Positions 450-17,238 of a stretch of 32,673 nt of DNA are shown here, piece by piece. The notes beneath the pieces are model-generated. The model was not told the origin of the DNA, did not search any database, and worked only from the letters and a program-made list of their open reading frames with translations. Each line of letters begins with the position of its first letter. Position 1 is the first letter of the stretch. The translations under genes and the position numbers were made by a program. Source of the stretch: Paracoccaceae bacterium (GTDB lineage: Bacteria > Pseudomonadota > Alphaproteobacteria > Rhodobacterales > Rhodobacteraceae); assembly GCA_024763335.1 (NCBI GenBank), contig JANTFS010000008.1, positions 1-32,673 on the forward strand, read 5' to 3'.

Positions 450-1016
450 ATGAAAGCAATTCGCGCCATTTTGATGGTCATCGGTCTGATCGCAATTCTT
501 GCGACGGCCTGGGTATTCTGGACATTCCGCGGGTTCGACCCGCAAGCACCGGCCGTCTACTGGAACATGGCGATGCGTCTGGCGGAGACCGGTAACTCCG
601 CCGAGGCAACGGTGTGGAAGCGCAAGGTGGCCGAGGGTCTCACCTTCGAGGACGTCGACGAATCGATCCAGTCAGTGGCGCTTGAACAGAACATTCGCGA
701 CGTTGGCAACCTGCCCCTTGGCGACCAGGTCGGCCTGATGATGGGCAGCGATTGGCGCAAGCTCAAGATCTACCTCTATTGCAACCCGCTCACCGCCGCG
801 AAGATGGTGGAGCATTCCGAGGCCTACTCGGCCTACCTGCCTTGCCGGGTCGCGTTGGTCGAAGACGATAACGGCGATCTTTGGATCTATTCGCTCGACA
901 TGGACATGATGATCCATGGCGGCAAGCCGCTTCCGGACGACCTCTTGCAGGAAGCGCTTCAGGTCAAGCAGACCATCCTCACGATCCTGAACGACGCGGC
1001 TGAGGGGAGCTTCTGA
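450..1016 (+). CDS. Membrane-anchored DUF302-type protein
   Basis: A 188-residue protein with one N-terminal membrane segment (about residues 6-25) and a domain that resembles DUF302 in its second half: a hydrophobic strand ending in Cys, a short helical part, then a strand with PCRVAL, followed by an acidic stretch and WIYSLDMDMM. The start at 450 is supported by AGGGAGG nine bases upstream. DUF302 has no established biochemical activity, though members are often seen beside sulfur-oxidation genes. It converges on a second DUF302 gene that follows soxS, so a role connected with the Sox system is plausible but inferred. The family call is from pattern recognition and needs a profile search to confirm. 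The segment between the anchor and the domain is not recognised. Confidence 0.8.
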   Translation: MKAIRAILMVIGLIAILATAWVFWTFRGFDPQAPAVYWNMAMRLAETGNSAEATVWKRKVAEGLTFEDVDESIQSVALEQNIRDVGNLPLGDQVGLMMGSDWRKLKIYLYCNPLTAAKMVEHSEAYSAYLPCRVALVEDDNGDLWIYSLDMDMMIHGGKPLPDDLLQEALQVKQTILTILNDAAEGSF

Positions 1017-1037: not shown

Positions 1038-1487
1038 TCAATAGCCGGTGAGCGCCTCGTCGATGATACCGTCGAGGAGGTCGCTCACCTGGTCCATCGT
1101 GCCTGCGGGATAGGTGCGGCGGCCAACCGTGATTTCACCCACGGCGCCCGGCTGCTCCATCACGAAAATGGTGTAGGGGCAAAACTGAAGGTTCATCGGG
1201 TCAGCTTCCATGACAGCGCGGCTGACCTCGGCGGAACAGAAGTTGAAGACCTGCGCATGGGTGAAGATCGTTGTCGTGCTTCCGACATCCGCCTTCGTTC
1301 GTTCGAGCATGTCGCCCACGTGGTTGACCGCATCGATGACGAGCCCGGCATTGGTGATCGCGGTTTCGACGTCGAACATCACGTCGTCGTAGCTTCCTTG
1401 AACCGTGCGAACGACAGGACCATGCGACTCGGCGAGAGCCGGAGCGGCGGCAAGAAAAGCAGCGGCGGCAAGTGCGAGGTGTTTCAT
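1038..1487 (-). CDS. Exported DUF302-type protein downstream of soxS
   Basis: A 149-residue protein with a clear signal peptide (hydrophobic core, cleavage near ALA-ES at residue 19-20) and a DUF302-like domain with a Cys at the end of a strand (FNFC) and a second Cys in FCPYTIFV. The ORF track begins at 1523, but the ATG at 1487 has AGAGGGG seven bases upstream and starts the signal peptide directly, so it is the better start. The gene follows soxS on the same strand after only 22 bases, so the two are probably co-transcribed. A periplasmic role with the Sox proteins is therefore likely by context. The function of DUF302 is not established, and a heme, metal or sulfur-binding role would be speculation. 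Confidence 0.82.
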   Translation of the reverse strand: MKHLALAAAAFLAAAPALAESHGPVVRTVQGSYDDVMFDVETAITNAGLVIDAVNHVGDMLERTKADVGSTTTIFTHAQVFNFCSAEVSRAVMEADPMNLQFCPYTIFVMEQPGAVGEITVGRRTYPAGTMDQVSDLLDGIIDEALTGY

Positions 1488-1509: not shown

Positions 1510-1902
1510 TCAGGAATCGCCAAGGTCTGCCTTGGCGAGAATCTCGTCGAGCAGGAACCAGAAAAATTCTGGGCCCGGGTAACCCTCGATCCGACCCACT
1601 TCGCTGTTTTCGGACAGGAGCACGAAGGTCGGCGTCAGATAGGCGGGGCGGTCCAGCACCATGCCTTCGGGTAAGGGGTCATGGATATTGAGCATGGTCA
1701 GGGGGGCCGCCGCGCCCTGCTCCGTGTTGGGATAGGCCGGACCAATCTCTTTTTTCCAGCGGGCACACCAGATGCACCCGGTTTCCTCGAACATGATAAG
1801 GCGCAGATCTCCAGCGAACGCGGGCCCGGTCAGCAGCGCGAGGCAGAGCATGAAAGCCCCGATCGACCGCGACCATGCCGCAGGTGCGAAATGATATTTC
1901 AT
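1510..1902 (-). CDS. soxS: SoxS, periplasmic thioredoxin-like protein
   Basis: A 130-residue protein with a signal peptide (cleavage near AFA-GD, residue 30) and a small thioredoxin fold with the redox motif CIWC at residues 43-46, followed by the cis-proline element LTPTFV. The size, motif and position divergent from soxV match SoxS of Paracoccus pantotrophus, which keeps the Sox system reductively active by acting on SoxY. It is read from the minus strand in an apparent operon with the exported DUF302 gene. Only 67 bases separate its start from soxV, a region known in P. pantotrophus to be bound by the repressor SoxR. The soxR gene that often accompanies soxS is not in the window. Confidence 0.9.
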   Translation of the reverse strand: MKYHFAPAAWSRSIGAFMLCLALLTGPAFAGDLRLIMFEETGCIWCARWKKEIGPAYPNTEQGAAAPLTMLNIHDPLPEGMVLDRPAYLTPTFVLLSENSEVGRIEGYPGPEFFWFLLDEILAKADLGDS

Positions 1903-1906
1903 TGAC

Positions 1907-1951
1907 GCCTCATGTACCGAACATAAAGAATGCTAAGCCATGACATGAGGC
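1907..1951. promoter_or_regulatory. Inverted repeat in the soxS-soxV divergent promoter region
   Basis: GCCTCATGT (1907-1915) and ACATGAGGC (1943-1951) are perfect 9-base inverted arms separated by 27 bases. They fill most of the 67-base region between two divergent sox genes. In P. pantotrophus the ArsR-family repressor SoxR binds the corresponding region, so an operator role is reasonable. The spacing is wide for a single dimer, so the arms could be two separate sites or mark a looped arrangement. Confidence 0.45.
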
Positions 1952-1969
1952 CGGACAAGGAAAACGCAC

Positions 1970-2719
1970 ATGGGATTTGACCCAACATTTGGCGGAGCAG
2001 CTCTGGCGGGACTGCTGTCGTTCCTTTCCCCCTGTATCCTGCCGATCGTTCCCTTCTATCTGGCCTATATGGCCGGCATCTCGATGCAGGAGCTGCGCGG
2101 AGACGAGGGCGGGCCCGCGATTCCGCCGGGCGCACAACGACGGCTGATCTTTTCGTCTATCGCCTTTTCATTCGGCGTGACGACGATCTTCGTCTTGCTC
2201 GGCCTCGGGGCCACCGCGTTGGGCTCGGCATTCATTCAGTGGAAAACCCAGCTTTCGTGGGTGGCGGCAGCGATCCTGTTCCTGTTCGGCCTGCATTTTC
2301 TCGGGATATTCCGGCTGAAATTCCTCTACCGTGAAGCCCGGCTGGAGGCCTCATCGGACCCGACAACCGTGGCCGGTGCCTATGTCATGGGCCTTGCTTT
2401 CGGGTTTGGATGGACCCCGTGCGTCGGCCCCGCGCTCGCGGCGATCCTGATGGTCGCCAGCGGCACGGGCGACCTGTTCCGGGGGGCAATGCTGCTTCTC
2501 GTCTACGGCCTGTCGATGACCTTGCCGTTCGTGCTGGCCGCCGCCGCGGCGCGGCCCTTTCTCGCTTGGGTCGGGCGCAATCGCCGTTTCATGGGCTATG
2601 CCGAAAAGGCGATGGGGGTGATGATGATCCTCTTCGCCTTGCTCATCGCGACCAACTCGGTGGGCTACATCGCCGAATGGATGATCAACAATTTCAGCTG
2701 GGACAACACGCTCGTCTGA
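1970..2719 (+). CDS. soxV: SoxV, CcdA-family transmembrane thiol-electron carrier
   Basis: A 249-residue integral membrane protein of the CcdA/DsbD-transmembrane family with about six hydrophobic segments. The two redox cysteines sit in conserved Pro-Cys contexts, LSPCILP (Cys22) and TPCVGP (Cys151). In the Sox system it moves electrons from cytoplasmic thioredoxin across the inner membrane to periplasmic SoxW. It is divergent from soxS and followed by soxW after 21 bases. The length agrees with the family. CcdA of cytochrome c maturation is the alternative for the sequence alone, but the sox context settles it. Confidence 0.93.
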   Translation: MGFDPTFGGAALAGLLSFLSPCILPIVPFYLAYMAGISMQELRGDEGGPAIPPGAQRRLIFSSIAFSFGVTTIFVLLGLGATALGSAFIQWKTQLSWVAAAILFLFGLHFLGIFRLKFLYREARLEASSDPTTVAGAYVMGLAFGFGWTPCVGPALAAILMVASGTGDLFRGAMLLLVYGLSMTLPFVLAAAAARPFLAWVGRNRRFMGYAEKAMGVMMILFALLIATNSVGYIAEWMINNFSWDNTLV

Positions 2720-2740
2720 GCGTGAAACAGGGAGGAACAC

Positions 2741-3322
2741 ATGAAACTATTCGCAATTCCCGCGGCGGTTCGTTCACTGGCCGGGGTGATTCTGATCGGG
2801 CTCGCCACCCCGGCATTGGCCGACGTGCCACTTGGTGACGACGGCCTGCACAAACCCGACTGGCTACAGGAAACCTTCCTCGATCTGCGCGAGGATCTCG
2901 CCGATGCGAATGCCCAAGGCAAGCGGATGATGATCATGATCGAGCAGCGCGGATGCATCTATTGCACCAAGATGCACGAAAAGATCCTGCCCGATCCCCG
3001 AATCGACGCCCTGATTCGCGAGGCGTTCTTCATCGTGCAGATGAACCTCTACGGCGATCTTGAGGTTACCGATTTCGATGGCACCGTGCTGAGCGAAAAG
3101 GATATGGCGCGGCGATGGAACACGGTGTTTACGCCGACGATGATCTTTCTGCCCGAAGAAGTTCCCGAGGGCGAAACTGCCGTCGAAGCGGCGGTCGCAA
3201 TCATGCCCGGCGCGTTCGAACGCCTGACGACCTTGGCCATGTTTACTTGGGTTCGTGACAAGGAATACGACAACATCGACTTCCAAAGATACTTCGCCGA
3301 GAACTTCAGCCCGCCGCAATAG
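2741..3322 (+). CDS. soxW: SoxW, periplasmic thioredoxin
   Basis: A 193-residue exported thioredoxin-fold protein. The signal peptide ends near ALA-DV (residue 28), and the redox motif CIYC lies at residues 72-75 in a long helix context, with the cis-proline loop FTPTMIF further on. SoxW is the partner reduced by SoxV. The start has GGAGG eight bases upstream. It is directly downstream of soxV and is followed by a 187-base gap before soxX, so soxVW is probably one transcript and soxX begins another. Confidence 0.9.
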   Translation: MKLFAIPAAVRSLAGVILIGLATPALADVPLGDDGLHKPDWLQETFLDLREDLADANAQGKRMMIMIEQRGCIYCTKMHEKILPDPRIDALIREAFFIVQMNLYGDLEVTDFDGTVLSEKDMARRWNTVFTPTMIFLPEEVPEGETAVEAAVAIMPGAFERLTTLAMFTWVRDKEYDNIDFQRYFAENFSPPQ

Positions 3323-3509
3323 ACCGGAGTTTTCTTGGCCCCGCGAGGTCGTCAACTCAAAAAACCATGCAAAAAATCAAATATTTTTGTTGTTTGGCTT
3401 TGGGTCGTGTGGTTATTGTCCGATCCCAGCGGTGCGTCAAATGAGGCATATCGCCACAGAATAAGCGGCACAACGCCGCAGCGAATAGAACGAGCTAGGG
3501 AGGGCTCTT
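3323..3509 (+). promoter_or_regulatory. soxW-soxX intergenic region, likely promoter/operator of soxXYZAB
   Basis: This 187-base gap contains a distinctly AT-rich block around 3357-3420 (runs of A, then AAATATTTTTG with the 8-base palindrome AAATATTT) in otherwise GC-rich DNA. In P. pantotrophus the repressor SoxR binds this intergenic region as well as soxS-soxV. The heptamer ATGAGGC occurs here (about 3440) and also as the right arm of the soxS-soxV inverted repeat. I could not fix a -35/-10 pair. GGGAGGG precedes the soxX start. Confidence 0.5.
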
Positions 3510-3992
3510 ATGAGAACACTGTTTGCGCTCTGCGCAGCAGCCGTGACTGCATTTCCGTCCATCCTCAGCGCCGAAACCATGCCCAGAGACGTGATGTTCT
3601 CTGACCATGGAGAGGTGGCTGAATCCCTCACCGGGGTGCCCGGCAATCCGGAGGAAGGGTTTAAGACGGCAACCACGAAAAGCCTCGGTAACTGCGTGGC
3701 CTGCCACGTAGCCAACGGGTGGAAAGACCTGCCGTTCCCCGGCAACATCGGCCCTGATCTGACGGGCGTGGCGCATCGCTACGACGAGGCGCACCTGCGG
3801 GGCATTCTGGTCAATTCCAAGAAAACGTTCCACGAAACGGTGATGCCGGCGTTCTACAACGTCGATGACATCATCCGCCCGGGGGATCGTTACACCGGCA
3901 AGCCCGCGAAATCGCTCGACGTGACGATTCTCACGGCGCAGCAGATCGAGGACATCCTCGCTCTGCTCATGACCTTCAACGAAGACCACTGA
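3510..3992 (+). CDS. soxX: SoxX, c-type cytochrome subunit of SoxXA
   Basis: A 160-residue exported monoheme cytochrome c. A signal peptide covers about residues 1-21. The heme-binding motif CVACH is at 62-66, and Met112 in VMPAFY is the likely distal ligand. SoxXA oxidatively couples thiosulfate to the C-terminal cysteine of SoxY in the periplasm and passes electrons to small cytochromes c. The length and motif order agree with SoxX of alphaproteobacteria. It is first of the soxXYZAB series and lies downstream of a long, AT-rich upstream region that is probably its promoter. Confidence 0.93.
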   Translation: MRTLFALCAAAVTAFPSILSAETMPRDVMFSDHGEVAESLTGVPGNPEEGFKTATTKSLGNCVACHVANGWKDLPFPGNIGPDLTGVAHRYDEAHLRGILVNSKKTFHETVMPAFYNVDDIIRPGDRYTGKPAKSLDVTILTAQQIEDILALLMTFNEDH

Positions 3993-4027
3993 GCCCGCGC
4001 GTCCATCCAACGGGAGATCAACGAGAA

Positions 4028-4447
4028 ATGACTTACACGAGAAGAGAAACCCTGGTTCTCGGTGCCAGCAGCATCGCCATGCTTGCGGTTGCACCGGCAG
4101 CCTTTGCCGCCACGACCGACGAGGAAATTGCGGCTTTCACCGGCGGTGCAGCCGCAGGTGAAGGCGGTATCGAAATCGGTGCTCCGGAAATCGCCGAAAA
4201 CGGCAACGTCGTGCCGGTCGAAGTGACCGCACCCGGCGCCGAAGAGATCATGCTGCTGGCCACCGGCAACCCGTCTCCGACCGTTTGCAAGGTGAAGTTC
4301 GGCCCGGCCGCTGGCTCGCAGCGCGTGTCGACCCGCATCCGTCTCGCCAAGACGCAGGACGTGCTCGCCATGGCCCGGATGGGCGACGGCAGCTTCGTGC
4401 AGGCGACGCGCACGGTGAAGGTCACCATCGGCGGCTGCGGCGGCTGA
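4028..4447 (+). CDS. soxY: SoxY, sulfur-carrier subunit of SoxYZ
   Basis: A 139-residue protein with a twin-arginine signal (TRRETLVLG) and the diagnostic C-terminal swinging arm GGCGG, in which Cys137 carries the sulfur intermediates. SoxYZ ferries covalently bound thiosulfate between SoxXA and SoxB (and SoxCD where present). The body has a beta-sandwich, Gly/Ala/Val-rich composition usual for the family. It lies 35 bases after soxX with AACGGGAG upstream and is followed by soxZ. The C-terminal tail is intact, so the carrier should be functional. Confidence 0.96.
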   Translation: MTYTRRETLVLGASSIAMLAVAPAAFAATTDEEIAAFTGGAAAGEGGIEIGAPEIAENGNVVPVEVTAPGAEEIMLLATGNPSPTVCKVKFGPAAGSQRVSTRIRLAKTQDVLAMARMGDGSFVQATRTVKVTIGGCGG

Positions 4448-4508
4448 GGACGCACCCGCGGCTCAGACGCTGCGGGGCATGAACCAACGAGAATTTAGGA
4501 GACCCGAA

Positions 4509-4835
4509 ATGGCAGCTTCCAAACCCCGCGTGAAGGTTCCCGGTTCGGCCAAGGCCGGCGAAGCCTTCACCATCAAGACCCTGATCAGCCACCCGATGGA
4601 ATCGGGCCTGCGCAAGGACAAGCAAGGCAACCCCATCCCGCGCAAGATCATCAATCGCTTCACCTGCGACTTCAACGGCACCAATGTGATCGACATGGAG
4701 ATGCACGGCGCGGTTTCGGCGAACCCGTATATCGAGTTCGACGCCGTGATCGACGCGGCCGGCGAGTTCACCTTCAACTGGTATGACGATGACGGCTCGG
4801 TCTACACCGCGTCCAAAGCGATCAAGCTGGCCTGA
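4509..4835 (+). CDS. soxZ: SoxZ, scaffold subunit of SoxYZ
   Basis: A 108-residue protein with no signal peptide. It is expected to be exported in complex with SoxY, whose twin-arginine signal serves both. The ORF track starts at 4479, but the ATG at 4509 is preceded by TAGGAGA at proper spacing and begins with the family-typical KPRVKVP stretch, so it is preferred. The sequence ISHPMESGLRKD and the C-terminal beta strands ending FTFNWYDDDGS are recognisable SoxZ features. It completes the heterodimer that presents the SoxY cysteine to the other enzymes. Confidence 0.95.
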   Translation: MAASKPRVKVPGSAKAGEAFTIKTLISHPMESGLRKDKQGNPIPRKIINRFTCDFNGTNVIDMEMHGAVSANPYIEFDAVIDAAGEFTFNWYDDDGSVYTASKAIKLA

Positions 4836-4874
4836 GAAGTGAAAAATAAGAAAGAACGTCAGGGAGGAGACGCG

Positions 4875-5741
4875 ATGACCACTCGCGCGAAGAAGACAGC
4901 GGTTCTTGCCGCGGTCATGACGGTCGGGTTCGGGGGTGCGGCAATGGCCGAGCCCGATCTCGATGCCAAGCTCGTGATCAATGATGAGCTGGAAATGACG
5001 ACGATCGTCGAACCAGCGCCCTACCTCGATGGTGCGCTCGATCAGGTGATCTCGGGTTGGCATTTCCGTGACGCCGCTACCCGCGCCATGGAAATGGACG
5101 ACTTCGAGAACCCCGCGATGAACTTCGTCGAAGACGGGCTCGCCGCCTGGGATGCCGTTGACGGCACCGAGGGCAAGTCCTGCGCCTCATGCCACGGTGC
5201 GATCGAAGAAGGTATGCGGGGCGTGCGCGCCGTGATGCCGAAGTACAACGAGGAGGCCGGCGATCTGTGGTCCCTCGAGGAGTACATCAACGATTGCCGC
5301 GTGAACCGGATGGGCGCGGAAGCCTGGAACTGGGACAAGACGCCGATGAAGGTGATGACTGCTGCGATCGGGGTTCAGTCGCGCGGCATGCCGGTCAACG
5401 TGGCGATCGACGGTCCGGCCCGCCCCTACTGGGAACAGGGCAAGGAAATGTTCTACGCCCGCACCGGTCTGCTGCAGATGTCTTGCGCGAGCTGCCACGA
5501 GGAAAACTATGGCAATTACATCCGCGCCGACCACCTCAGCCAGGGTCATCTCAATGGCTTCCCGACGCTGCGTTTGAAAAAGGGCAGCCTCGTGTCGACC
5601 CACAACCGTCTGTTCGGTTGCGTGCGCGACACCCGCGCCGAGAGCTACCCGAAGGGCAGCGCGGAGCTTAAGGCGCTTGAGCTCTACGTGGCCTCGCGCG
5701 GCAACGGTCTTTCGGTCGAAACGCCGGCCGTGCGCCCGTGA
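4875..5741 (+). CDS. soxA: SoxA, diheme cytochrome c subunit of SoxXA
   Basis: A 288-residue exported cytochrome. The start at 4875 has GGGAGGAG upstream and opens the signal peptide, whereas the track start at 4839 adds a charged tail. Two heme motifs are present, CASCH at 103-107 and CASCH at 204-208, so this is the diheme form as in P. pantotrophus. Cys141 (NDCRVNR) and Cys249 (LFGCVRD) are in position to be the axial cysteine ligands; Cys249 corresponds to the active-site cysteine, which is a persulfide in known structures. It joins thiosulfate to SoxY. A strong terminator-like hairpin follows it, before soxB. Confidence 0.94.
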   Translation: MTTRAKKTAVLAAVMTVGFGGAAMAEPDLDAKLVINDELEMTTIVEPAPYLDGALDQVISGWHFRDAATRAMEMDDFENPAMNFVEDGLAAWDAVDGTEGKSCASCHGAIEEGMRGVRAVMPKYNEEAGDLWSLEEYINDCRVNRMGAEAWNWDKTPMKVMTAAIGVQSRGMPVNVAIDGPARPYWEQGKEMFYARTGLLQMSCASCHEENYGNYIRADHLSQGHLNGFPTLRLKKGSLVSTHNRLFGCVRDTRAESYPKGSAELKALELYVASRGNGLSVETPAVRP

Positions 5742-5758
5742 TGACATGAAAATCGGAG

Positions 5759-5791
5759 GGGCGGCGGCCTGAGATGGCCGTCGCCCTTTTT
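5759..5791 (+). terminator. Terminator-like hairpin between soxA and soxB
   Basis: GGGCGGCGGCC pairs with GGCCGTCGCCC over 11 positions (one G-T pair) around a six-base loop and is followed directly by five T residues. This is a textbook intrinsic terminator placed inside the sox series, so soxB is probably expressed at a lower level than soxXYZA or from its own start. Confidence 0.78.
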
Positions 5792-5833
5792 CGTCCGCAT
5801 CCATCGAAATCCTGACTATCGAGAGGGGAAGAC

Positions 5834-7525
5834 ATGATCTCGCGCAGAGACTTCCTTCAAGCCACGGTCGCCGCGTCGGCCATCTGGGGGGGCAGCGGTG
5901 TTGGCGCATGGGCGCAAATCGCCGCCCGGCAACAACTCACCCAAGATCAGTTGCTTGAATTTGATACTTTCGGCAACGTGACCCTCATTCACGTGACCGA
6001 CATCCATGGCCAACTCAAGCCGATCTGGTTCCGCGAGCCCGAGATCAACCTCGGCGTTGGCGAGGTCCGGGGTCTTCCGCCGCATGTCACCGGACAGGAC
6101 TTCCTCAAGCTCTACAACATCGAGCCCGGCTCGCCCGAGGCCTACGCGCTGAGCTACAATGACTTCGACGCGCTTGCCCGGACCTATGGCAAGATGGGCG
6201 GGCTCGATCGGGTGGCGACAGTCATCAAGGCAATCCGCGCCGCACGGCCGGACGCGCTTTTGCTCGATGGCGGCGACACGTGGCACGGGTCCTACACGGT
6301 GCTCAAGACCGGCGCGCAGGACATGGTCGACGCGATGAACCTGCTTGAGACAGATGCGATGACCTCGCATTGGGAATTCACCCTCGGCATCGACCGGGTG
6401 ACCGAGATCGTCGACAACCTGCCCTTCCCCTTCCTCGGTGCCAACATCTTCGATGCCGAATGGGACGAGCCGGCCTACGAACCCTACAAGATGTTCGAGC
6501 GCGGCGGCGTGCAAGTGGCGGTGATCGGCCAGGCCTTCCCCTATCTGCCGATCGCCAACCCGCGCTGGATGTTCCCCAACCTCAGCTTCGGCGTGCGCGA
6601 GGAGCGCATGGCGGAAGTGGTGCAGGAGGTGCGCGATGCCGGGGCCGATGTCGTCGTCGTGCTCTCGCACAACGGTTTTGATGTGGACCGAAAGCTGGCG
6701 AGCCGCGTGCCGGGGATCGACGTGATCCTCACCGGGCACACCCATGATGCGCTGCCCGAGCCGGTTCAGGTGGGCAACACCATGTTGATCGCTTCGGGCT
6801 CGAACGGCAAGTTCGTCAGCCGGGTCGATCTGGATGTGCGCGACGGCGAGATGAAAGGCATCCGCCACAAGCTGATCCCGATCTTTTCCGACGTGATCGC
6901 GCCCGATGCCGAGATGACGGCGCTGATCGACGGCCACCGCGCGCCCTACGAAAGCGAGATGCGCGAAGTGATCGGACGCACCGGCTCGACGCTCTACCGC
7001 CGCGGTAACTTCAACGGCACGTGGGACGACCTGATCTGCAACGCGCTGATTGAGGAACGCGAGGCTGATATTGCGCTGTCGCCCGGGTTCCGCTGGGGGC
7101 CGAGCCTGATTTCCGATACGGATATCACCCGCGAGGACATCTACAACGCGACTTCGATGAGCTACCCCAACGCCTACCGCTCCGAGATGACCGGCGAACA
7201 GCTCAAGGTGATCCTCGAGGATGTGGCCGACAACCTGTTCAACCCCGATCCCTACTATCAGCAGGGCGGCGACATGGTCCGCGTTGGCGGCATGGGCTAC
7301 CGCATCGACGTGACCAAGCCGCAGGGCGAACGTCTGAGCGAGATGACCGTGCTCAAGACCGGCGAGGCGGTCGATCCGTCGAAGACCTATGTGGTTGCGG
7401 GCTGGGCCAGCGTCAACGAAGGCACGGAAGGTCCGCCGATCTGGGACGTGGTCGAGAACTGGGTGCGTGGTCAGGGCACGGTTAACATCGACCCGAATGA
7501 ATCGGTCGATGTCATCGGTGGCTGA
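5834..7525 (+). CDS. soxB: SoxB, dimanganese thiosulfohydrolase
   Basis: A 563-residue periplasmic enzyme of the 5'-nucleotidase/metallophosphatase superfamily that hydrolyses the terminal sulfate from SoxY-bound thiosulfonate. The Tat signal SRRDFLQA begins the protein. The metal-binding elements are in order: VTDIHGQ (about 53-59), LDGGDTWHGS (144-153), SHNGFD (278-283) and GHTHD (301-305). A C-terminal 5'-nucleotidase domain fills the remainder. GAGAGGGG lies just ahead of the start. Its length matches family members of about 560 residues. It is the last sox gene here; soxC and soxD, which usually follow in the same order in related bacteria, are missing. Confidence 0.96.
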   Translation: MISRRDFLQATVAASAIWGGSGVGAWAQIAARQQLTQDQLLEFDTFGNVTLIHVTDIHGQLKPIWFREPEINLGVGEVRGLPPHVTGQDFLKLYNIEPGSPEAYALSYNDFDALARTYGKMGGLDRVATVIKAIRAARPDALLLDGGDTWHGSYTVLKTGAQDMVDAMNLLETDAMTSHWEFTLGIDRVTEIVDNLPFPFLGANIFDAEWDEPAYEPYKMFERGGVQVAVIGQAFPYLPIANPRWMFPNLSFGVREERMAEVVQEVRDAGADVVVVLSHNGFDVDRKLASRVPGIDVILTGHTHDALPEPVQVGNTMLIASGSNGKFVSRVDLDVRDGEMKGIRHKLIPIFSDVIAPDAEMTALIDGHRAPYESEMREVIGRTGSTLYRRGNFNGTWDDLICNALIEEREADIALSPGFRWGPSLISDTDITREDIYNATSMSYPNAYRSEMTGEQLKVILEDVADNLFNPDPYYQQGGDMVRVGGMGYRIDVTKPQGERLSEMTVLKTGEAVDPSKTYVVAGWASVNEGTEGPPIWDVVENWVRGQGTVNIDPNESVDVIGG

Positions 7526-7547: not shown

Positions 7548-7580
7548 ACGCGGCGCCTTTCCGGCGCCGCGTTCGTCTTT
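7548..7580 (+). terminator. Terminator of the sox operon
   Basis: A perfect 10-base stem (ACGCGGCGCC / GGCGCCGCGT) with a TTTCC loop is followed by the T-rich TCGTCTTT. It sits just after soxB and before the convergent MetF-like gene, so it closes the sox transcription unit and may act in both directions. Confidence 0.7.
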
Positions 7581-11028: not shown

Positions 11029-11717
11029 TCGGCAAGGGCGGCGTCGATGATGTCCTTGAGCGCGGCATAGCTCATGTTGGAATGCTTGGTGCCATTGATG
11101 ACGAGCGACGGCGTTGCGTTGATTTCATGAGCTTCGGCGGTGGTCTGATAGGTTTCAACCAGACGGGTGGCCATGGACTGATCAGAGAAACATGCGTCGA
11201 TCTCCGCGTCCGTCAGACCGGCCGTCTTCCCAAGGGTGCGCAGATTGGCGAGGATCTCGTCGCCCTGTCCCGAGCCGATCCATTCGCGCTGTTTGTCATA
11301 GAGCATCCCCGAAATGCCGAAATACCGCTCCTCGCCGCCGCAGTTCGCGATCAGGCCGCCCCACAGCCCATAGCGATCGAAATAGACCTCGCGGTGAATG
11401 AATTTCACCTTGCCTGTGTCAATATATTCGGACTTCAGCTGCTTGAACTGGTCGGCATGGAAATCTGCACAATGCGGGCAGGTGTAAGACGCGTATTCGA
11501 TCACCGTGACTGGCGCATTTTCGTCTCCCAGAACGTGGTCGGGCAGAATGGACGGCGCGGGCTCTTCGCTTTGCGCAGCGGTTTCGCCGGTGCCGTCGGA
11601 TGAATCCGACGTCGCGGTGGAGAGTTGTGAGGTTTGGGTCGAGGGCTGGGTGAAATACCAGGCGCCACCGCCAATGGCGAGCAACAGCACTGCGATGATC
11701 GGGAGAAAACGGGTCAT
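11025..11717 (-). CDS. DsbA-like thiol-disulfide oxidoreductase (DsbA family, anchored)
   Basis: A 230-residue protein with an N-terminal hydrophobic segment (about residues 5-22), a Ser/Thr/Glu-rich linker to about 55, and a thioredoxin fold with insertion whose active site is CPHC at 80-83. The cis-proline element ATPSLVING is near the C-terminus. Such proteins introduce or shuffle disulfides in the periplasm. The ATG at 11717 is preceded by AAGAGGA and starts the membrane segment, whereas the 11960 start of the track adds unrelated sequence. It lies 10 bases after the dciA-like gene on the same strand. Lack of a visible lipobox suggests a membrane anchor or cleaved signal. The partner is unknown. 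Confidence 0.87.
   Translation of the reverse strand: MTRFLPIIAVLLLAIGGGAWYFTQPSTQTSQLSTATSDSSDGTGETAAQSEEPAPSILPDHVLGDENAPVTVIEYASYTCPHCADFHADQFKQLKSEYIDTGKVKFIHREVYFDRYGLWGGLIANCGGEERYFGISGMLYDKQREWIGSGQGDEILANLRTLGKTAGLTDAEIDACFSDQSMATRLVETYQTTAEAHEINATPSLVINGTKHSNMSYAALKDIIDAALAD

Positions 11718-16055: not shown

Positions 16056-17238
<1,183 letters not shown>

Follow-up and report, generated by a model that had tools for sequence, protein, structure and literature searches.

Genes for a truncated Sox system and reverse Dsr point to branched thiosulfate oxidation in a genus of Rhodobacteraceae

A 32,673-nucleotide stretch of DNA from a marine Paracoccaceae bacterium (assembly GCA_024763335.1, contig JANTFS010000008.1; hereafter the window) carries a sox cluster that stops at soxB and lacks soxCD. 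The window is contig C8 of a metagenome-assembled genome (MAG), a 3.0-Mb bin in 296 contigs with a completeness of 89.9%. We propose, with a probability of about 0.85, that the cluster encodes a genuine truncated Sox system whose sulfane sulfur passes to reverse Dsr (rDsr) and then through Soe to sulfate, a branched pathway of the Allochromatium type. The sox core is intact, soxCD is absent across the genus, and the same genome encodes an intact dsr-soe cluster.

The order soxS<>soxVWXYZAB is preserved at 1510-7525, soxS being read from the minus strand and the other seven genes from the plus strand. The cluster and its 3' boundary comprise the following features:

1510..1902, minus strand: soxS, periplasmic thioredoxin-like protein with a CIWC motif (tblastn to Ruegeria/Paracoccus SoxS, 120 bits)
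1970..2719, plus strand: soxV, CcdA/DsbD-type membrane electron carrier (Pfam DsbD_TM, 3e-18; 339 bits against reference SoxV)
2741..3322, plus strand: soxW, periplasmic thioredoxin with a CIYC motif (Pfam Thioredoxin_2; 248 bits against reference SoxW)
3510..3992, plus strand: soxX, monoheme cytochrome c with one CxxCH (TIGR04485, 81.5 bits, cut-off 61)
4028..4447, plus strand: soxY, sulfur carrier with a C-terminal GGCGG (TIGR04488, 138.6 bits, cut-off 125)
about 4509..4835, plus strand: soxZ, carrier partner (TIGR04490, 103 bits, cut-off 76)
about 4875..5741, plus strand: soxA, diheme cytochrome c with two CxxCH (TIGR04484, 225 bits, cut-off 110)
5756..5789, plus strand: strong hairpin with a T tract in the soxA-soxB intergenic region (fold -30.7 kcal/mol, z = -4.6), possibly an attenuator or processing site for the sox message
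5834..7525, plus strand: soxB, thiosulfohydrolase, last gene of the cluster (TIGR04486, 845 bits, cut-off 550)
7548..7572, plus strand: terminator-type hairpin with a T-rich tail, directly 3' of soxB where soxC starts in relatives (fold z = -3.6)
7591 to about 8472, minus strand: gene after soxB, distantly MetF-like (TIGR00676, 31 bits, cut-off 294)

The coordinates, model matches and 7548-7572 hairpin bear out the original prediction, made from the window's sequence, that an orderly soxS<>soxVWXYZAB series ends at soxB and meets a terminator. It had further placed an unrelated MetF-like gene beyond the terminator; the gene is present, but its likeness to MetF is only distant. SoxX, SoxY, SoxZ, SoxA and SoxB all exceed their NCBIfam equivalog cut-offs. 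The twin-arginine translocation (Tat) and metallophosphatase-type motifs of SoxB, the hemes of SoxX and SoxA, and the carrier motif of SoxY are likewise intact. By these models and motifs the core of a truncated Sox system (SoxXA, SoxYZ and SoxB) is present and undamaged. A chance or fragmentary cluster was considered and rejected, every gene being intact and syntenic across the genus.

Neither soxCD nor soxR was found within the window. The expectation that relatives usually carry soxCD directly after soxB holds: of the 80 named SoxB loci closest to that of the window, 73 have soxC within the retrieved flank, two of these on the other strand. At most of these 80 loci soxR and soxT adjoin soxS, and both are missing at the window locus. 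The closest SoxB locus, from a MAG that was deposited under the name Maritimibacter sp. HKST-UBA93 (L009), has the reduced layout too, as does Rhodobacteraceae RI_331 (L021). The HKST-UBA93 genome is apparently the same as G005, with a dsrA fragment at identical coordinates in G005 and in G259 (from L009). Its sox cluster contains two tandem soxW-like thioredoxin genes (L009, 6265-7489).

The original prediction had allowed that soxCD might lie elsewhere in the genome, which would make the locus a mere split cluster. A genome search found otherwise. The SoxC model has a cut-off of 420 bits, and its best match in the window's genome (89.9% complete) scored 28. A second search joined Ruegeria SoxC, SoxD, SoxF, SoxR and SoxT into one query and was run on this genome and six congeners. 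In the window's genome it detected neither SoxC nor the SoxD N-terminal region, and it located SoxF (76%) together with SoxE on a separate contig, C218. The six congeners, among them G001 (completeness 100%) and G006 (99%, in two contigs), likewise lack SoxC and the SoxD N-terminal region, and most of them have SoxEF and a SoxR-like repressor. The SoxCD that a complete, Paracoccus-type Sox requires is thus missing from the window's genome and all six congeners, and the split cluster is rejected on both searches.

Could the organism possess soxCD and a 296-contig MAG have missed it? Completeness below 90% allows for this, but the window's contig continues 25 kb beyond soxB without a gap, the nearly complete G006 and G001 lack the same sequences, and the sox cluster stops at soxB in every congener examined. 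These observations largely refute the explanation, which we consider extremely improbable. In members of the genus that bear soxB, the DUF302/soxSVWXYZAB block is constant, and the genes after it are unrelated and vary from one member to the next. Because soxCD is absent across congeners with this arrangement, its lack is a trait of the genus and not an assembly gap.

The genome does encode a route for the remaining sulfur. The search for dsr genes that had been recommended uncovered a complete rDsr-Soe cluster on three overlapping contigs, C59-C96-C91. C59 carries dsrA (C59:920-2125, 572 bits, far above the model cut-off) and the 5' part of dsrB. C96 holds the 3' part of dsrB, dsrE, F, H, C, M, K, L, J, O and P, a glycosyltransferase-3-like gene and the 5' part of dsrN. 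C91 continues with the 3' part of dsrN, dsrE2, an arsR gene, soeA, soeB, soeC, a Mrp-type ATPase and a YeeE-type transporter. The contig ends join by exact overlaps of 75 bp inside dsrB and 21 bp inside dsrN, and the resulting order matches a single contig of G006 as far as the transporter. dsrA also exceeds the cut-off in G001 and G006 and occurs as split fragments in G004 and G005; the dsrA model search found none in G003, which also lacks SoxB above the cut-off.

The individual assignments vary in kind. DsrA, B, E, F, H, C, K and O score above curated model cut-offs, and DsrM and DsrP match below theirs. DsrL, whose model match is to a broad NAD(P)-binding family, was identified from its place in the cluster and its motifs; the same holds for DsrJ, where the motifs are those for heme. 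In DsrC both conserved C-terminal cysteines are kept. The set therefore includes DsrAB with DsrEFH, DsrC, DsrL and DsrMKJOP, and consecutive C91 genes match Pfam Molybdopterin, Fer4_11 and DmsC, as SoeABC should.

Since a complete rDsr-Soe cluster sits in the same genome, partial oxidation products, which the original prediction had offered as one outcome, are not the best reading, whereas its aside that organisms lacking SoxCD may feed other pathways fits rDsr-Soe well. A reading of this kind holds that thiosulfate is oxidised incompletely, giving sulfate and, besides it, tetrathionate or sulfur that is stored or excreted, with Sox serving detoxification or mixotrophy only. A truncated Sox does leave sulfur as an intermediate (PMC4068000, PMC10451225), but the full rDsr-Soe set is encoded for the remaining steps and a SoxA/TsdA domain search found no TsdA; we judge incomplete oxidation very unlikely. 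The TsdA-type tetrathionate route was rejected on that search, which returned only the SoxA proteins of sox loci and, in one congener, a SoxA-like protein from a second sox-like set. This set (L161 5946-9774, contig C13 of G001) encodes SoxY and SoxZ fused into one protein of 294 aa, the flavoprotein of a flavocytochrome c sulfide dehydrogenase, and cytochromes resembling SoxX and SoxA.

The flux that we infer from these genes would begin with SoxXA binding thiosulfate to SoxYZ, after which SoxB would free the sulfone sulfur, so that SoxXA, SoxYZ and SoxB together would yield one sulfate. Without SoxCD, the sulfane sulfur on SoxY would escape periplasmic oxidation and enter the cytoplasm through sulfur, polysulfide or a YeeE/SoxT-like transporter. 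DsrE2/DsrEFH would deliver it to DsrC and on to DsrAB, which with DsrL and DsrMKJOP would produce sulfite, and SoeABC would oxidise the sulfite to sulfate. SoxEF, a pair of the flavocytochrome c sulfide dehydrogenase type, and a persulfide dioxygenase (PDO) would be auxiliary. Sulfate is probably the end product, with sulfur perhaps formed transiently. PMC10451225 calls the transport step unknown, and the YeeE-type gene that ends the genome's own cluster is a candidate for it. The branched logic for organisms without SoxCD is described in PMC4068000 and PMC10451225, and Sox-Dsr-Soe is named as a core pathway in PMC6397845.

Regulation of the cluster would come from a distance. As had been anticipated from the missing local soxR, a candidate regulator sits at another locus: the query with the joined Ruegeria proteins located a SoxR-like repressor on contig C35, beside a persulfide dioxygenase. 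The repressor is 69% identical to Ruegeria SoxR and has both persulfide-sensing cysteines (MILC, MFC) of SoxR/SqrR-type ArsR repressors. Its best matches in the PDB are the ArsR chains 13ct/6o8l, which we take to be SqrR. The adjoining PDO-like protein matches the C-terminal part of NF040641 at 388 bits and PDB 4ysk at 336 bits, and a rhodanese-like TIGR01244 protein lies at the same locus. The repressor probably regulates sox in trans. A search for an operator shared by the soxS-soxV promoter and the repressor locus gave only a weak, GAACATAAAGAATG-like motif, which is kept in just three promoters of the genus and has a partial match upstream of the repressor gene. Another ArsR regulator, beside dsrE2/soeA (L108 1645-1989), keeps the first sulfane-sensing cysteine and not the second; to judge by these residues, its sensing may differ from that of SoxR.

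The C35 locus bears on a further alternative, in which sulfane sulfur leaves SoxY as glutathione persulfide, PDO converts it to sulfite that is recycled to thiosulfate or oxidised, and rDsr serves sulfide or sulfur only. The genome encodes the PDO-like protein, its rhodanese-like partner and the SoxR/SqrR-like repressor; in a soxCD deletion of Cupriavidus pinatubonensis, PDO takes this role (PMC9959259); and RI_331 has the same soxCD-less cluster and no dsrA. PDO is, however, widespread and occurs in SoxC-bearing species as well (PMC9959259), and so does not explain the loss of soxCD, and the window's genome also encodes the whole rDsr-Soe cluster. PDO is a real side route, but we regard this alternative as unlikely.

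In one sample of the family, covering 249 genera of Rhodobacteraceae, we compared the SoxB, SoxC and DsrA model tables side by side. SoxB occurs in 160 genera, SoxC above cut-off in 152 and DsrA above cut-off in 19. SoxB and DsrA co-occur in 17 of the 249, and 11 of these 17 keep soxC (G009, G011, G037, G050, G066, G076, G102, G115, G176, G248, G252) while six lack it (G000, G070, G075, G094, G117, G213). In G009 a single contig carries soxB, soxC and dsrA together. Altogether nine genera have SoxB without SoxC; beyond the six with dsrA, G163 breaks off at soxB, G167 has a partial soxB only, and G060 has an atypical soxYZB set. dsrA is enriched among the SoxC-less sox genera (6/9 versus 11/151; Fisher p = 4e-5). 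soxCD and dsr have been called mutually exclusive (PMC6397845), but for Rhodobacteraceae strict exclusion is refuted by the 11 of 17 genera that keep soxC.

Loss of soxCD appears to have recurred. On an unrooted tree of 66 SoxB sequences, soxC status changes at least 5 times on well-supported branches, and soxC-less rows are likewise scattered on a DsrA tree drawn within the family without an outside reference. Unrooted counts cannot separate gain from loss, but gene order suggests losses: in G117, G094 and G070, all with dsr, soxEF comes immediately after soxB, as though only soxCD had been excised. The uncultured strain 52_120_T64 (L059), which has dsrA and lacks SoxC, provides a precise case. 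The alignment of its locus with that of NORP23 (L045) breaks after base 11709 of each and picks up again at 11713 versus 13560, leaving a clean gap of ~1.85 kb that removes exactly soxC and soxD; near relatives of 52_120_T64 keep soxCD. With somewhat better than even odds, soxCD and rDsr coexist in most rDsr-bearing genera of the family, and clean, repeated deletion of soxCD in several has turned a Paracoccus-type Sox into Allochromatium-type branched oxidation.

Several points count against our reading of the window locus. RI_331, the closest relative outside the genus and its sister on the SoxB tree, has the same soxCD-less cluster and no dsrA; loss of soxCD therefore does not strictly require that rDsr be kept, and in the window's lineage it may have preceded or outlived rDsr. 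Nor does rDsr force the loss of soxCD, which eleven genera with dsr retain. The association between missing soxC and dsrA is not significant by phylogenetically independent pairs (median p = 0.25), and with the 11 genera that keep both this leaves forced loss unsupported. SoeABC was assigned through domains and gene order, the libraries used having yielded no curated Soe model, and the oxidative direction of Dsr would follow from the linkage to DsrEFH, DsrL and SoeABC. Directly after soxB, RI_331 has what by sequence are two transposase-like genes (L021, 11837-14167), which may hint at how this strain lost soxCD.

The proposed pathway has close counterparts. Allochromatium vinosum and other purple and green sulfur bacteria also combine SoxXYZAB, without SoxCD, with dsrABEFHCMKLJOP-type genes, and their sulfane sulfur is expected to pass through rDsr (PMC4068000). 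Unlike them, the window's genome belongs to Rhodobacteraceae, retains alphaproteobacterial soxSVW and soxEF, has its Soe genes inside the dsr cluster, encodes PDO, and comes from an organism not known to form sulfur globules. With the complete Paracoccus/Ruegeria cluster (soxTRS-VWXYZAB-CD-EF-GH) the window shares the order and sequence of soxS<>soxVWXYZAB, but it lacks soxCD, soxR and soxT, and soxEF is on another contig. Hyphomicrobium denitrificans similarly couples an alphaproteobacterial truncated Sox to a cytoplasmic pathway and has a sulfane-sulfur-sensing SoxR, but its cytoplasmic part is sHdr (PMC10451225), whereas here it is rDsr.

The window holds two further genes beside soxS, and their arrangement is conserved:

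450..1016, plus strand: DUF302 protein (Pfam DUF302, 1e-11), in the same place in G001, G004, G005, G006 and L021
1038..1487, minus strand: a divergent secreted protein resembling DUF302, on the strand of soxS and downstream of it (Pfam DUF302 weakly matched, under the cut-off; conserved synteny)

This DUF302-type pair (450-1487) adjoins soxS throughout the genus, and in other sox clusters DUF302 proteins lie downstream of soxF; in G070 and G248 the protein at that place is 52% similar to the product of 1038..1487. The recurrence suggests a sox-linked role. Elsewhere in the window, 16056-17150 on the minus strand encodes a CcrM-like DNA methylase with a RAMA domain, ordinary for the group.

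The pathway type itself is already known. A Roseobacter-clade fosmid from the same family-level group (Lenk et al. 2012, ISME J 6:2178; cited in PMC4818494 and PMC6397845) reportedly carries Sox, rDsr and SoeABC; it is said to include soxCD, unlike the window locus, and would be an earlier example of soxCD and dsr coexisting. What is notable is that rDsr-bearing Rhodobacteraceae appear to have lost soxCD repeatedly, at times very cleanly. Among the genera of the family are ones with complete Sox, ones with complete Sox and rDsr, and ones with truncated Sox and rDsr, such as the window's genus. A soxB survey of marine Rhodobacteraceae does not reveal the end pathway. What SoxCD does can be tested directly in close pairs of which one member has soxCD and the other lacks it, and if deletion has indeed recurred, the family would offer a natural before, during and after series in which to test how much SoxCD still contributes where rDsr exists.

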